A stretch of 64,000 bases of DNA from Thermomonas sp. GTDB taxonomy: Bacteria > Pseudomonadota > Gammaproteobacteria > Xanthomonadales > Xanthomonadaceae. Location: assembly GCA_016720345.1 (NCBI GenBank), contig JADKKV010000001.1, forward strand, positions 299,433-363,432, read 5' to 3'. The notes beneath the pieces are model-generated. The model had not been told where the DNA came from. It was given only the letters and a program-made list of their open reading frames with translations, and searched no databases. Position numbers and translations under genes: made by a program. Below are positions 17,093 through 21,402 of the stretch, piece after piece. Every line of letters starts with the position of its first letter. The first letter of the stretch is position 1.

Positions 17093-17746
17093 ATGCAACC
17101 CGATTTCTGGCACCAGCGCTGGGCCGATAACCAGATCGGCTTCCACCAGTCCGCGCCCACCCCGCTGCTGTTGAAGCACTGGCCGGCGCTGGGCATCACG
17201 CCGGGCGCGCAAGTCTTCGTGCCGCTGGCCGGCAAGTCGCTGGACATGGCCTGGCTCGCATCGCAAGGCCATCGCGTGCTGGGCGTGGAACTGTCGCAAC
17301 TGGCCGTCGAACAATTCTTCGCCGAGCACGACCTGCAGCCCGGCATCCACGAAACGAAATACGGCCGCCACTACGTTGCAAGCGGCATCGAACTCATCTG
17401 CGGCGACGCCTTCGCGCTCGACGCCGATGCCCTGCGCGATTGCGCGGCGGTGTTCGACCGCGCCGCCCTGATCGCGCTGCCGCCGGAGTTGCGTGAACGC
17501 TATGCGAGCGAACTGTATGCATCCCTGCCCACTGGGTCCCGCGGGCTGCTGGTGACCCTGGAATACCCGCAGGAAGAACGCCCCGGACCGCCGTTCTCGG
17601 TCACGGAGGATGAAGTTCGCGCGCTGTATTCGCGCGACTGGCAGGTCGACCTGCTCGACCGCAGGCCGATCCCGCCGGAACACCCGGGTTACGTGGGCGG
17701 CGTGTCCCGACTGGACACCGCCACCTACGCCCTGCGCAAGCGCTAG
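17093..17746 (+). CDS. tpm: Thiopurine S-methyltransferase
   Basis: A 217-residue SAM-dependent methyltransferase with the TPMT N-terminus FWHQRWADNQIGFHQ, the SAM-binding PLAGKSLDMAWLA and GVELSQLAVEQFF motifs, and DRAALIALPPELRERYA. The bacterial enzyme methylates thiopurines and, in pseudomonads, selenium and tellurium oxyanions. The ATG at 17093 has GAGGAG 6 nt upstream. It converges with asnB; the palindrome CTAG at 17743-17746 supplies the TAG stop of both genes. Confidence 0.95.
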   Translation: MQPDFWHQRWADNQIGFHQSAPTPLLLKHWPALGITPGAQVFVPLAGKSLDMAWLASQGHRVLGVELSQLAVEQFFAEHDLQPGIHETKYGRHYVASGIELICGDAFALDADALRDCAAVFDRAALIALPPELRERYASELYASLPTGSRGLLVTLEYPQEERPGPPFSVTEDEVRALYSRDWQVDLLDRRPIPPEHPGYVGGVSRLDTATYALRKR

Positions 17747-19428
17747 ATCGCCGCCACCGCGGCGTTGTGCACGCCGGCCACCGCGCGGCCGGAAGGATCC
17801 GCCATGGTCGCGAACGCGGCATCCCACGCGATCGCCGCCGGCGACGAGCACGCGATCGACTTGCCGCCCGGCACCGTGTTCGCGCAGGCGTCGCCCGGGA
17901 AGATGTCCTCGAAGATCCGGCGATAGAAGTACGCCTCGCGGGTCTGCGGCGGGTTGATCGGGAAGCGTTGCCCGGCCGCGGCGAAATCCGCGTCGCTCAC
18001 GTTCGCTTCGGCATGCGCCTTCAGGCCGTCGATCCAGCCGTAGCCAACGCCATCGCTGAACTGCTCCTTCTGCCGCCACAGGATTTCCTGCGGCAAATAG
18101 CCTTCGAACGCCTCGCGCAGCACGGATTTTTCCATCTTCCCGCCGCCGCTCATCTTGTACTTCGCGTCCATGCGCATCGCCACGTCCATGAACTCGACAT
18201 CCAGGAACGGCACCCGCGGCTCCACGCCCCACGCCATCATCGACTTGTTGGCGCGCAGGCAATCGAAGCTGTGCAGCGCATCCAGCTTGCGCACCAGCTC
18301 CTCGTGGAATTCGCGCGCGTTCGGCGCCTTGTGGAAGTACAGGTAACCGCCGAACAGTTCGTCGCTGCCCTCGCCGCTGAGCACCATCTTCACCCCCATC
18401 GCCTTGATCCGCCGCGCCAGCAGGAACATCGGCGTCGATGCACGGATGGTGGTGACATCGTAGGTCTCGATGTGCCGGATCACCTCCGGCAGCGCGTCCA
18501 GTCCCTCGGCGAAGCTGTAGGTGAAGCCGTGGTGCACGGTGCCCAATGCATCCGCGGCGATCTGCGCCGCAGCGAGATCCGGCGAGCCCTCCAGGCCGAT
18601 GGCGAAGCTGTGCAGGCGCGGCCACCAGGCCTCGCCCTTGTCGTCGTCCTCCACCCGCTTGCGCGCGAACTTGGCCGCGCAGGCCGCAACCAGCGAAGAA
18701 TCCAGCCCGCCCGACAGCAGCACGCCGTACGGCACGTCGCTCATCAGCTGGCGATGCACCGCGCGCTCGAAGGCCTCGCGCAGTTCGGCCTTGTCCGCAG
18801 CCACGCCCTGCACCGCGTCGTAGTCGCGCCACGCACGCTTGTACCAATGCACCAGCTCGCCGGTGGCGCTGTCGTAGGCATGGCCGGGCGGAAACGCGGC
18901 GACGTCGTCGCAGACGCGCACCAGCGACTTCATCTCCGAGGCCACCCACAGGCGGCCATCGGCGTCGTGGCCCCAGTACAGCGGACAGATGCCCATGTGG
19001 TCGCGCGCAATCAACACGCGCTTCGCGGCCGCATCCCACAACGCAAAGGCGAAGATGCCGTTGAGCCGGCCCAGCCAGGTCTCGGGCGCTTCGCCATCGC
19101 GATGCAACGCGTTGATCACCTCGCAGTCGGAACCGGTCTGGAAGGCATAGGGCCTTGCCAGCCGGCGCTCGAGGTCGCGATGGTTGTAGATCTCGCCGTT
19201 GACCGCCAGCGCCAGTTCGCCGTCCGCGGAATGGATGGGCTGCGCGCCGCCGGCGGGATCGACGATCGCCAGCCGTTCATGGACCAGCAGCGCGTTCGCA
19301 TCCACGTGCACCCCGCTCCAGTCCGGCCCGCGGTGGCGCTGGCGCGCGGACAGGGACAGCGCCAATGGCCGCAGGGGATGCAGGTCCGCGCCGGGGCGGA
19401 GGTCGAAGACGCCGAGGATCGAGCACAT
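17743..19428 (-). CDS. asnB: Asparagine synthase B (glutamine-hydrolysing)
   Basis: A 561-residue two-domain enzyme. An N-terminal class II glutaminase has the nucleophile Cys2 (MCSILGVF) and NGEIYNH. The C-terminal synthetase has the ATP-pyrophosphatase loop LLSGGLDSSLVA (near 238) and LSGEGSDELFGGY. It converts aspartate, glutamine and ATP to asparagine. AAGGA lies upstream of the ATG at 19428. The gene is preceded by an Asn-rich leader peptide and an intrinsic terminator (19458-19589), which indicates control by transcription attenuation. It converges with tpm, overlapping by 4 nt. Confidence 0.97.
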   Translation of the reverse strand: MCSILGVFDLRPGADLHPLRPLALSLSARQRHRGPDWSGVHVDANALLVHERLAIVDPAGGAQPIHSADGELALAVNGEIYNHRDLERRLARPYAFQTGSDCEVINALHRDGEAPETWLGRLNGIFAFALWDAAAKRVLIARDHMGICPLYWGHDADGRLWVASEMKSLVRVCDDVAAFPPGHAYDSATGELVHWYKRAWRDYDAVQGVAADKAELREAFERAVHRQLMSDVPYGVLLSGGLDSSLVAACAAKFARKRVEDDDKGEAWWPRLHSFAIGLEGSPDLAAAQIAADALGTVHHGFTYSFAEGLDALPEVIRHIETYDVTTIRASTPMFLLARRIKAMGVKMVLSGEGSDELFGGYLYFHKAPNAREFHEELVRKLDALHSFDCLRANKSMMAWGVEPRVPFLDVEFMDVAMRMDAKYKMSGGGKMEKSVLREAFEGYLPQEILWRQKEQFSDGVGYGWIDGLKAHAEANVSDADFAAAGQRFPINPPQTREAYFYRRIFEDIFPGDACANTVPGGKSIACSSPAAIAWDAAFATMADPSGRAVAGVHNAAVAAI

Positions 19429-19457
19429 CGTGGAAGTCCTTGTGGGGTGTTTTTCGA

Positions 19458-19497
19458 GGGGAAAACGAAGAGGCCCGCACTTTGCAGTGCGGGCCTC
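19458..19497 (-). terminator. Intrinsic terminator / attenuator in front of asnB
   Basis: Read on the minus strand, a perfect 12-bp stem (GAGGCCCGCACT, 19497-19486, and its complement, 19481-19470) with a 4-nt loop is followed by TTCGTTTTCCCC. It lies 41 nt upstream of the asnB ATG and 27 nt downstream of the leader peptide stop. It is the 3:4 hairpin of the proposed attenuator. It would also end read-through from mdeA. Confidence 0.85.
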
Positions 19498-19563
19498 GGG
19501 AAGATCAGCGTGTGATGCGCGCGCTAATCGCCGACCCGCGGGGGGCTGGCGTTCGGGCGATTA
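19470..19563 (-). promoter_or_regulatory. Asn-responsive attenuator, alternative RNA structures
   Basis: Segment 1, TAATCGCC (19563-19556), lies at the Asn codons and pairs perfectly over 8 bp with segment 2, GGCGATTA (19532-19525), which contains the leader stop codon. The GCGGGUC just before segment 2 (19539-19533) can instead pair over 7 bp (one G-U) with GGCCCGC (19495-19489) of the terminator's first arm. Ribosome stalling at Asn codons would free segment 2 to form the 2:3 antiterminator. Complete translation would leave the 3:4 terminator to form. Confidence 0.75.
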
Positions 19564-19589
19564 TTGTTGCTGGCGCGCTGCAGGCTCAT
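19524..19589 (-). CDS. asnB leader peptide (21 residues, Asn-rich)
   Basis: A 22-codon frame translating to MSLQRASNNNRPNASPPRVG plus a final D. It has Asn codons AAC, AAT, AAT in a row and a fourth AAC three codons later, and its TAG lies in segment 2 of the attenuator. The position, the amino acid matching the product of asnB, and the following terminator are the hallmarks of his/trp-type leader peptides. The ATG overlaps the mdeA stop (ATGA), so translation may be coupled to mdeA. Alternatively AATAGT (19601-19596), 6 nt upstream, with TTGCGC (19625-19620) at 18-bp spacing, could drive a separate leaderless transcript. No Shine-Dalgarno sequence is visible. Confidence 0.75.
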   Translation of the reverse strand: MSLQRASNNNRPNASPPRVGD

Positions 19590-20803
19590 GCGGCGACTAT
19601 TGCACGCAACTTCGGCGCCGCGCAAGCCGACAGCGCGCGCGCGACGTCGGCCACCAGGTCGTCGGTATCCTCCAGCCCCGCCGACAGCCGCACCAGTCCG
19701 TCGGAGATGCCCGCGGCCTCGCGTTGTTCCGGCGTGTAGGTCGAGTGGGTCATGCTGGCGGGGTGCTGCGCCAGCGATTCGGCATCGCCCAGGCTGACCG
19801 CACAGGCCACCATCCCGAGCGCGTCGATGAAGCGCATGCCCGCCTCGTAGCCGCCCTGCAGCTCGAACGCGATCATCCCGCCGGGCTGGCGCATCTGCCG
19901 CTTCGCCAATCCGTGCTGGGGGTCGGTTTCCAGGCCGGGGTAATGCACCTTCGCCACCGCCGGATGCGCCTGCAGCAGCCTCGCCACCGCCATCGCGTTG
20001 GTGCAGTGGCGGTCCATCCGCAGCGCCAGCGTCTTCAGCCCGCGCATCAGCAGCGCGGCGTCCTGCGGCGAGAGCACCGCGCCGGTCATGTCCTTCAGGC
20101 CCTGCAGGCGGATGCGCTGGGCCAGCTCGGCGTCCGCGGCCACCGCGATGCCGGCGGTGACGTCGCCATGGCCGCTGATGTACTTGGTCGCCGAATGCAC
20201 CACGACGTCCGCACCCAGCGCGAGCGGGCGCTGCAGGTACGGGGTGCAGTAGGTGTTGTCGACCACCACCAGCGCACCGGCGCGATGCGCCGCGGCCGCG
20301 ACCGCTTCGATGTCCACCAGCCGCATGTTGGGATTGGCCGGGCTTTCGAAGTACACGACCTTGGGCTTGCCGGCCATCGCGGCCTCGACCGCCGACGGGT
20401 CGGTCATGTCGACATGGGTCACGCGCACCCCGAACTCGCCGATCCCGTGGTGCAGGAACGCGAAGGTGCAGCCGTACAGGGTGAGGTCGACCACGATCTC
20501 GTCGCCGGGGCGCAGCAGGGTCCACAGGGTGGCGGTGATCGCGCCCATGCCGGAGCCGAACGCGATCGCGGCGGCGCCGCCTTCCAGCACCGCCAGCCGC
20601 GACTCCAGCAGGGCCAGGGTCGGGTTGGCGATGCGCGTGTAGATGTAGCCGTCCGCCTCGCCGGCGAAGCAGCGCCCGCCCCCGGCCGCGCTGGCGAAAG
20701 TGAAGGTGGCGCTCTGGTACACCGGCGGCACCAGCGCGCCGTGGTGGTCGCGCGGGTCGTAGCCATGGTGGATGGCGGTGGTGGAGAAACCGGGCATGCC
20801 CAT
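19586..20803 (-). CDS. mdeA: Methionine gamma-lyase
   Basis: A 405-residue Cys/Met-metabolism PLP enzyme. It is assigned to methionine gamma-lyase rather than cystathionine gamma-synthase because it has the family-specific cysteine in LYGCTFAFLHHGIGEFG (Cys116 in the Pseudomonas enzyme) and QGLKDMTGAVLSP (Lys240-Asp241). The PLP lysine is in HSATKYISGHGD. It cleaves methionine to 2-oxobutyrate, methanethiol and ammonia. It is divergent from an Lrp-type regulator, the mdeR-mdeA arrangement known in Pseudomonas putida. Its stop overlaps the start of the asnB leader peptide. Confidence 0.92.
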   Translation of the reverse strand: MGMPGFSTTAIHHGYDPRDHHGALVPPVYQSATFTFASAAGGGRCFAGEADGYIYTRIANPTLALLESRLAVLEGGAAAIAFGSGMGAITATLWTLLRPGDEIVVDLTLYGCTFAFLHHGIGEFGVRVTHVDMTDPSAVEAAMAGKPKVVYFESPANPNMRLVDIEAVAAAAHRAGALVVVDNTYCTPYLQRPLALGADVVVHSATKYISGHGDVTAGIAVAADAELAQRIRLQGLKDMTGAVLSPQDAALLMRGLKTLALRMDRHCTNAMAVARLLQAHPAVAKVHYPGLETDPQHGLAKRQMRQPGGMIAFELQGGYEAGMRFIDALGMVACAVSLGDAESLAQHPASMTHSTYTPEQREAAGISDGLVRLSAGLEDTDDLVADVARALSACAAPKLRAIVAA

Positions 20804-20898: not shown

Positions 20899-20928
20899 AA
20901 CTTGAAGATAAACGAGGTTGATCCTTCC

Positions 20929-21402
20929 ATGACCCATGACCTGGACCGCACCGACCGCCGCCTGCTGGCCGCGCTGCAGGACGACGCGCGCCTGACCGTG
21001 GCCGAACTCGCCGAACGGGTGGCGCTGTCGACCTCGCCATGCTGGCGGCGGGTGCGCCGGCTGGAGCAGGCCGGCTACGTGACCGGTTACCACGCGCAAC
21101 TGTCGGCGGAGCGGCTGGGTTACGGGATCACCGCCTTCGTCAGCGTGGTGATGGGCAGCCACACCCAGGAGGTGGCGCGCGCCTTCGAGGCGCGCCTGCG
21201 CGACATCCCGGAAGTGATCGCCTGCCACAACGTGTCCGGGCGCTACGACTTCCTGCTGGAAGTGGTCGCCACCGACCTTGCCGCCTACGGCGAGTTCGCG
21301 CGCAACGTGCTGCAGGCCTTGCCCGGCGTGACCGAACTGCACTCCAGCTTCTCGCTGAAGTCGCTCAAGGCGGAACGCCGGCTGCCGCTGCACGGCACCT
21401 GA
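20929..21402 (+). CDS. mdeR: Lrp/AsnC family transcriptional regulator (MdeR-like)
   Basis: A 157-residue regulator with an N-terminal winged helix-turn-helix (DRTDRRLLAALQDDARLT; recognition region LSTSPCWRRVRRLEQAG) and a C-terminal RAM/effector domain (HNVSGRYDFLLEVVA). The ATG at 20929 follows GAGG; an in-frame TTG at 20902 is less likely. Divergence from mdeA matches P. putida, where MdeR activates mdeA, so I use that symbol. A general Lrp/Bkd-like role cannot be excluded. It converges with dapE, separated by 6 nt. Confidence 0.85.
   Translation: MTHDLDRTDRRLLAALQDDARLTVAELAERVALSTSPCWRRVRRLEQAGYVTGYHAQLSAERLGYGITAFVSVVMGSHTQEVARAFEARLRDIPEVIACHNVSGRYDFLLEVVATDLAAYGEFARNVLQALPGVTELHSSFSLKSLKAERRLPLHGT

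Follow-up and report, generated by a model that had tools for sequence, protein, structure and literature searches.

An Asn-rich leader peptide and a candidate transcription attenuator upstream of asnB in Thermomonas and its relatives

The asnB upstream region in the window

The window is the whole stretch of 64,000 nucleotides from Thermomonas sp. (contig JADKKV010000001.1) that was analysed. Its minus strand carries asnB, which encodes a glutamine-hydrolysing asparagine synthase B; the gene name, given in an earlier note on this DNA, agrees with the NCBIfam model PRK09431 (NF006949, asparagine synthase B), which scores 852 bits against a cut-off of 499. The methionine gamma-lyase gene (ORF 19586-20803, minus) lies upstream, and its stop codon overlaps the AUG of a short Asn-rich leader ORF. 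The features of the region, all on the minus strand, are given below in the order of transcription.

19620..19625, minus: predicted -35 element TTGCGC, the commonest -35 choice (48 of 134 leaders)
19596..19601, minus: predicted -10 element AATAGT, 6 nt before the leader AUG, a gap conserved in relatives
19589-19524, minus: leader ORF of 21 codons plus TAG, peptide MSLQRASNNNRPNASPPRVGD; an Asn-rich ORF stands at a like place in relatives
19560..19568, minus: Asn codons 8-10 (AAC AAT AAT), read in the leader ORF
19556..19562, minus: protector 5' arm AAUCGCC (segment 1), from folds of the complete leader RNA
19551..19553, minus: Asn codon 13 (AAC), which is codon -9 before the stop, read in the leader ORF
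19539-19533, minus: antiterminator 5' arm GCGGGUC, pairing with the terminator 5' arm, with covariation
19526..19532, minus: protector 3' arm GGCGAUU (segment 2), overlapping the leader stop codon, from folds of the complete leader RNA
19522..19529, minus: 5' arm of the antiterminator inner hairpin, GAUUAGCG, from window folds, with weaker family-wide support
19503..19510, minus: 3' arm of the same inner hairpin, CGCUGAUC, likewise from window folds and with weaker family-wide support
19497-19470, minus: intrinsic terminator, a perfect 12-bp hairpin with loop GCAA, from folds and covariation of the stem
19462..19469, minus: terminator tail UUCGUUUU, read in the sequence
19437..19441, minus: Shine-Dalgarno-like AAGGA of asnB (an SD-like 4-mer precedes asnB in 130 of 134 regions)
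17743..19428, minus: asnB, 561 aa (NCBIfam PRK09431/NF006949)

The earlier note had described a 21-residue leader with AAC AAT AAT and a further AAC, a stop-codon segment that pairs with the Asn-codon segment, a 7-bp pairing of GCGGGUC with the first arm of the terminator, and a perfect 12-bp terminator with a T-rich tail 41 nt before asnB. All of these parts were recovered, the Asn codons as numbers 8, 9, 10 and 13. The overlap with the methionine gamma-lyase gene, the conserved predicted promoter and the inner antiterminator hairpin go beyond that note. The predicted promoter of the asnB leader sits inside the coding end of the methionine gamma-lyase gene. An Lrp-family regulator gene (20902-21402), which scores below the cut-offs of the Lrp and AsnC models, is divergent from methionine gamma-lyase.

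The leader RNA folds 3.5 standard deviations below the shuffle mean (z -3.5), and 0 of 200 shuffles fold as well. Within it, UAAUCGCC pairs with GGCGAUUA over 8 bp, with the leader stop codon beginning inside the pairing, and GCGGGUC pairs over 7 bp (one G-U) with GGCCCGC of the terminator 5' arm. This arm is common to the terminator and the antiterminator, and the two pairings are mutually exclusive. In the predicted fold of the complete free RNA, the UAAUCGCC/GGCGAUUA pairing and the terminator both form. Stalls were modelled by equilibrium folds with an assumed ribosome footprint edge 13 nt from the A-site. With the A-site at codon 8, 9, 10 or 13 and the terminator 3' arm unmade, the antiterminator fold was obtained each time (-25.7 kcal/mol), GCGGGU and CGG being paired to the 5' side of the terminator around the inner hairpin. 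With a ribosome at the leader stop codon, the exposed RNA of the window folds as the terminator. With no ribosome and the terminator 3' arm unmade, the MFE fold is another hairpin over the antiterminator strand, not AAUCGCC/GGCGAUU.

In the model, stalls at the Asn codons give the antiterminator of the window a probability of 0.99-1.00, and RNA free of ribosomes gives 0.02; a strand lying under the ribosome, e.g., at the stop codon, is assigned a probability of 0. Over 133 sequences, the probability without a ribosome has a mean of 0.73 and a median of 0.97. According to the model, the protector pairing is not general: the antiterminator would be blocked in the window and is predicted to form in many relatives without a ribosome. 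The inner hairpin averages -10.6 kcal/mol across the leaders against -7.8 kcal/mol for shuffles, and does not surpass the shuffles in every lineage. The earlier note had held that every element of his/trp-type attenuation is present; leader, terminator and antiterminator are there in order, and the protector seems not to be a general part.

Conservation across the order and selection on codons and pairings

AsnB was found at an E-value of 1e-100 or better in 268 of 296 family genomes. Upstream regions were taken from part of the genomes with an AsnB match, including the wider order, and they cover the families coded f1, f2 and f12, with Xanthomonas, Stenotrophomonas, Pseudoxanthomonas, Lysobacter, Luteimonas, Thermomonas, Arenimonas, Dyella, Rhodanobacter and Fulvimonas as named members. 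A detector of a hairpin plus an ORF ending 5-70 nt before it, with the T tail demanded loosely, was run on 148 distinct regions (158 kept). In 134 of the 138 distinct native-type regions, it found a hairpin together with a leader holding 3-10 Asn codons. The ten others of the 148 (L132-L141) have an AsnB type 63-66% identical and are without the leader-terminator unit. Four of the 138 were missed by the detector: L129 shows no Asn-rich ORF next to a hairpin, even with an AsnB 74-76% identical; in L130 and L142 the leader is Asn-rich and the detector paired no hairpin to it; and L164 has both leader and hairpin, further upstream. The T tails are poor in some relatives (e.g., L016, L017 and L021).

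For the ORF, a larger set of 210 regions (195 distinct) was scanned, in which the regions added after the detector run were scanned for the ORF only. The earlier note had proposed retention of the Asn codons in relatives as a check, and an ORF with at least three Asn codons was present in 163 of the 164 distinct regions of the order whose AsnB part is at least 67% identical (native type). The scan itself gave 162 of 164 including L129, which was left uncounted because no hairpin follows and no denser Asn run is present; L163 and L164, with leaders beyond the scanned stretch, were added. All 31 distinct order regions with an AsnB part less than 67% identical are without the leader-terminator unit, and the one ORF with four Asn codons and the two with three among them probably reflect composition. 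Left out of the set were a paralogue of the own genome (L002), loci in which the N-terminus was not reached (L003-L005), the second piece of a split gene (L144), loci labelled as other phyla (L049, L056 and L062), the outgroups L077-L111 except L078, L113, L114, and identical upstream regions. The Asn count alone was dropped as evidence, given a possible effect of AT-rich DNA: the Photobacterium outgroups L094 and L100 carry an ORF with seven Asn codons, with no terminator found beside it by the detector.

Several loci of the survey are unusual in themselves. In L006, upstream of asnB in genome G222, a run of C differs by one base, which shifts the frame past the usual stop and lengthens the predicted peptide; the Asn codons and stems are kept, and its AsnB is 99% identical to that of the window, the genome being coded as another genus. 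In genome G199 (L143 and L144), asnB is present as two overlapping pieces in different frames, with leader and terminator. The different AsnB of L132-L141 and L322 (about 63-66% identical) comes without any leader and is found in some genomes of these families; it looks as though gene and control had been exchanged as one. The loci L049, L056 and L062, labelled Holophagales, Rhodococcus and Deltaproteobacteria, encode an AsnB 74-79% identical to that of the window without the leader; either gene transfer or mis-binned contigs could account for them. Palindromic units like ggccatccatggcc lie between terminator and asnB in L052, L057 and L063, and also in, e.g., L018 and L023; several copies are found in Rhodanobacter, and they have the appearance of interspersed repeats.

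The codons of the 134 leaders point to selection on asparagine. At codons -20 to -9 before the stop, AAC or AAT occupies 678 of 1,608 positions in frame (42%) and 3 of 1,608 (0.2%) in each of the two other frames, while AAA or AAG occurs once; the Asn content of five window proteins is 2.0%. The two Asn codons are used nearly equally (AAC 333, AAT 345), which indicates conservation of the amino acid and not of a particular RNA sequence. Asn codons stay common as far as codon -9 (0.47), drop to 0.01 at codon -8 and reach at most 0.08 further on, and in the model codon -8 is the first stall position that covers the antiterminator in most leaders. The Asn codons seem to lie at positions from which a stalled ribosome would leave the antiterminator free; the edge lends support rather than independent proof, because the later codons also encode the antiterminator. 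The gap from stop codon to terminator has a median of 26 nt (5-95% range 21-30 nt).

The covariation in three stems that the earlier note had named as a check was obtained for the terminator and the antiterminator; the protector pairing is the part that seems not to generalize. In the terminator stem, seven of ten pairs have a sequence with both sides changed. A strand matching at least four of five core bases of the terminator 5' arm was located in 133 of the 134 leaders and starts exactly 13 nt before the stop codon in 96 of these 133; the sole leader left out, L117, has a terminator without the core. Since the locator itself uses pairing, separate shuffle tests, which ignore the relatedness of the sequences, were made. 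The full core helix is present in 90% of leaders and in 16% of shuffled leader ends. For 132 distinct regions, 0 of 1,000 shuffles reached the observed paired fraction and covariation score, and restricting the test to the 95 regions whose strand starts at -13 again left all 1,000 shuffles below the observed values. A MAFFT alignment that took in 26 of 37 representatives has 72.5% of its antiterminator cells paired, against 31-44% when the partners are slid; its covariation score of 0.133 compares with at most 0.067 for the slid partners. Shuffles of this alignment reached the observed paired fraction in 0 of 500 cases and the covariation score in 1 of 500; double-change pairs (31/500), double-change cells (91/500) and pair types (283/500) were weak or not above the shuffles. 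At core position 3, the 133 leaders have G-C in 123, A-U in nine and one mismatch, the latter in L158, where the locator chose another place. All nine A-U regions, which come from five genus codes and are counted as regions and not as independent events, have the strand at -13, and seven of them keep G in the terminator 3' arm, so the compensating change serves the antiterminator and not the terminator.

Asparaginyl-tRNA, the predicted promoter and the proposed mechanism

The charging enzymes bear on the signal that such a leader could sense. AsnRS was found above cut-off in 97 of 99 family genomes, the own genome included, and GatB in 0 of 99, with 12 of 14 control genomes positive. From the known pathways, it follows that free asparagine, rather than transamidation, would serve to charge tRNA-Asn.

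A predicted promoter precedes the leader, with the order TTGCGC, 18 nt, AATAGT, 6 nt, AUG in the window. The -35/-10 spacer is 17 or 18 nt in 127 of 134 leaders, and the distance from the -10 hexamer to the start codon is 6 or 7 nt in 115 of 134 (gaps of 2-15 were allowed), while shuffles spread evenly; the start codon in each relative was picked by the promoter score itself. An SD-like 4-mer stands before 42 of 134 leader starts against 130 of 134 asnB starts, and the AGGA within the common -10 hexamer CAGGAT can be counted as such a 4-mer. The conserved promoter is predicted to put the transcript start on the leader AUG, which would make the RNA leaderless. The ribosome would then bind the 5'-terminal AUG as it emerges from RNA polymerase, without a Shine-Dalgarno sequence or 5' UTR, and sensing would begin at the first base of the RNA.

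Taken together, the sequence evidence makes it very likely that this region controls asnB by ribosome-mediated transcription attenuation, with asparaginyl-tRNA as the signal. RNA polymerase would start at or beside the leader AUG, and a ribosome would translate the Asn-rich leader. Under a shortage of Asn-tRNA, the ribosome would stall on the Asn codons and free the RNA from the antiterminator on; GCGGGUC could pair with the terminator 5' arm, around the inner hairpin, and transcription would run on into asnB. With ample Asn-tRNA, the ribosome would reach the stop codon and cover the antiterminator strand, the terminator would form, and transcription would end about 128 nt after its start. The arrangement very probably lets the cell turn asnB on only when asparagine is short. 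It is also likely, at a lower level of confidence, that the leader represents an order-wide attenuator class found in several families, with asparagine as a new specificity and a leader peptide read from a leaderless transcript.

The region could also be a real attenuator whose main signal is something other than the charging of tRNA-Asn, for instance translation speed, leaderless initiation or an Asn/Arg-rich nascent peptide. Leaderless initiation is itself regulated in bacteria, and CGC and GCG are the leaders' next most frequent codons after AAC and AAT. The chance of this appears very small, as AAC and AAT far outnumber the other codons at the critical positions, asparagine is the product of the downstream gene's enzyme, and the residue order around the Asn codons varies by lineage, unlike a fixed stalling motif.

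A still smaller chance is given to the reading in which the hairpin merely terminates the methionine gamma-lyase gene or upstream operon, asnB has its own promoter and the leader ORF arose by chance. With the leader AUG overlapping the methionine gamma-lyase stop codon in the window, a terminator is indeed expected nearby. This reading was rejected: the leader-terminator unit is kept in relatives with differing sequence upstream of the leader, the Asn codons and the antiterminator are under selection, and 41 nt from the terminator end to the asnB AUG is short for a promoter. In 45 of the 134 regions, the terminator ends at most 45 nt from asnB, a gap that we infer to be too short for a separate promoter, so that the asnB transcript must cross the terminator. 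Control of asnB by a T-box, as known for asparagine genes in Firmicutes, or by another ligand-binding RNA is hardly credible, and known RNA families were rejected: no Rfam family reached gathering score in the window segment or 12 relatives, an E-value search of the window segment gave eight matches, all far below gathering and none a T-box, and the relatives gave 0 matches.

Related leaders, known systems and significance

Leader-peptide attenuators in proteobacteria are known for the his, trp, phe, thr, ilv and leu operons. Like these, the asnB region has a leader ORF rich in codons for the pathway product, mutually exclusive antiterminator and terminator, and the structural gene downstream. 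It differs from them in the Asn codon, the asnB gene, the predicted leaderless start and a protector that seems not to be general; with this last exception, its testable features would place it in ribosome-mediated attenuation. AsnC controls asnA. T-box and AsnC control also regulate the asparagine supply, and to our knowledge neither T-box control of asparagine genes nor AsnC control of asnA has a leader peptide; the asnB leader shows no Rfam T-box match.

The covariance model R1, which scores the own-genome asnB element at 90 bits and the asnB elements identified in the genus at 44.7-94.2 bits, also led to other leaders. Eight fetched full-length secondary matches of the genus are ilvC leaders with LVLVLI peptides (L264-L271, 42.6-50.3 bits), and one match of another genus (L272, 37.3 bits) is again an ilvC leader. 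In the own genome, an ilvD leader (L274, G000:C6:224186-224300, 26.3 bits) encodes a peptide with LVLVLVLII (...LVLVLVLIISGQSGAGVGFV) and has a terminator; the ilvC leaders of relatives (e.g., ...ILVLVLITSPTGAGRSGV) have a terminator as well. The names ilvC and ilvD were read from the translated downstream ORFs and not from a family search. All these leaders have a layout like that of the asnB leader. The ilvC leaders have a GUGCGGG-like strand before the leader stop, as the asnB leader does, and the ilvC and ilvD terminators are of like sequence; they differ from the asnB leader in their Ile, Leu and Val codons and in the genes that follow. These branched-chain leaders indicate that this style of attenuator occurs in these genomes. 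At two other weak own-genome R1 matches, no branched-chain leader was found.

Over 229 class genomes, R1 scores above 70 bits in only three genomes, all of the own family; the other class-genome matches among those listed reach at most 37.3 bits, many on the terminator only. Among 27 loci kept from other class genomes (L237-L263), four have a 12-codon open window with at least five Asn. The candidate L246 was rejected as a leader at the R1 match, its Asn-rich window being the end of a long ORF, and the three remaining windows lie away from the R1 matches. No Asn-rich ORF was found upstream of asnS at L115 and L116.

Proteobacterial attenuators were reportedly surveyed by Vitreschak and others (2004). 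In the open literature, to which the search was directed and outside which subscription papers fall, none of the matches listed, as far as their accessible text goes, describes an Asn leader peptide or attenuation of asnB. The accessible parts of PMC2965389, PMC10219788, PMC1262725, PMC3568101, PMC2659441 and PMC4833913 name no Asn leader. Actinobacterial trp, ilvB and cys leader peptides have been predicted by comparison (PMC1262725); these concern other amino acids, and the word 'asparagine' is absent from the main text of that paper. The asparagine specificity, the asnB target, the predicted leaderless start and the inner hairpin would appear to be new. Five asnB leader peptides compared with NCBIfam and Pfam belong to no family there, with one Pfam match far below cut-off; as Rfam likewise holds no family for the element, annotation by these libraries would miss the asnB leader.

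If the proposed attenuation is true, asparagine would become one of the few amino acids known to be sensed through leader-peptide attenuation, and the region would be a natural asparagine-tRNA sensor. The predicted leaderless start would make the coupling of ribosome and polymerase testable in an attenuator without a 5' UTR, and the control of asnB would be explained in Xanthomonas, Stenotrophomonas, Lysobacter, Dyella and their kin.
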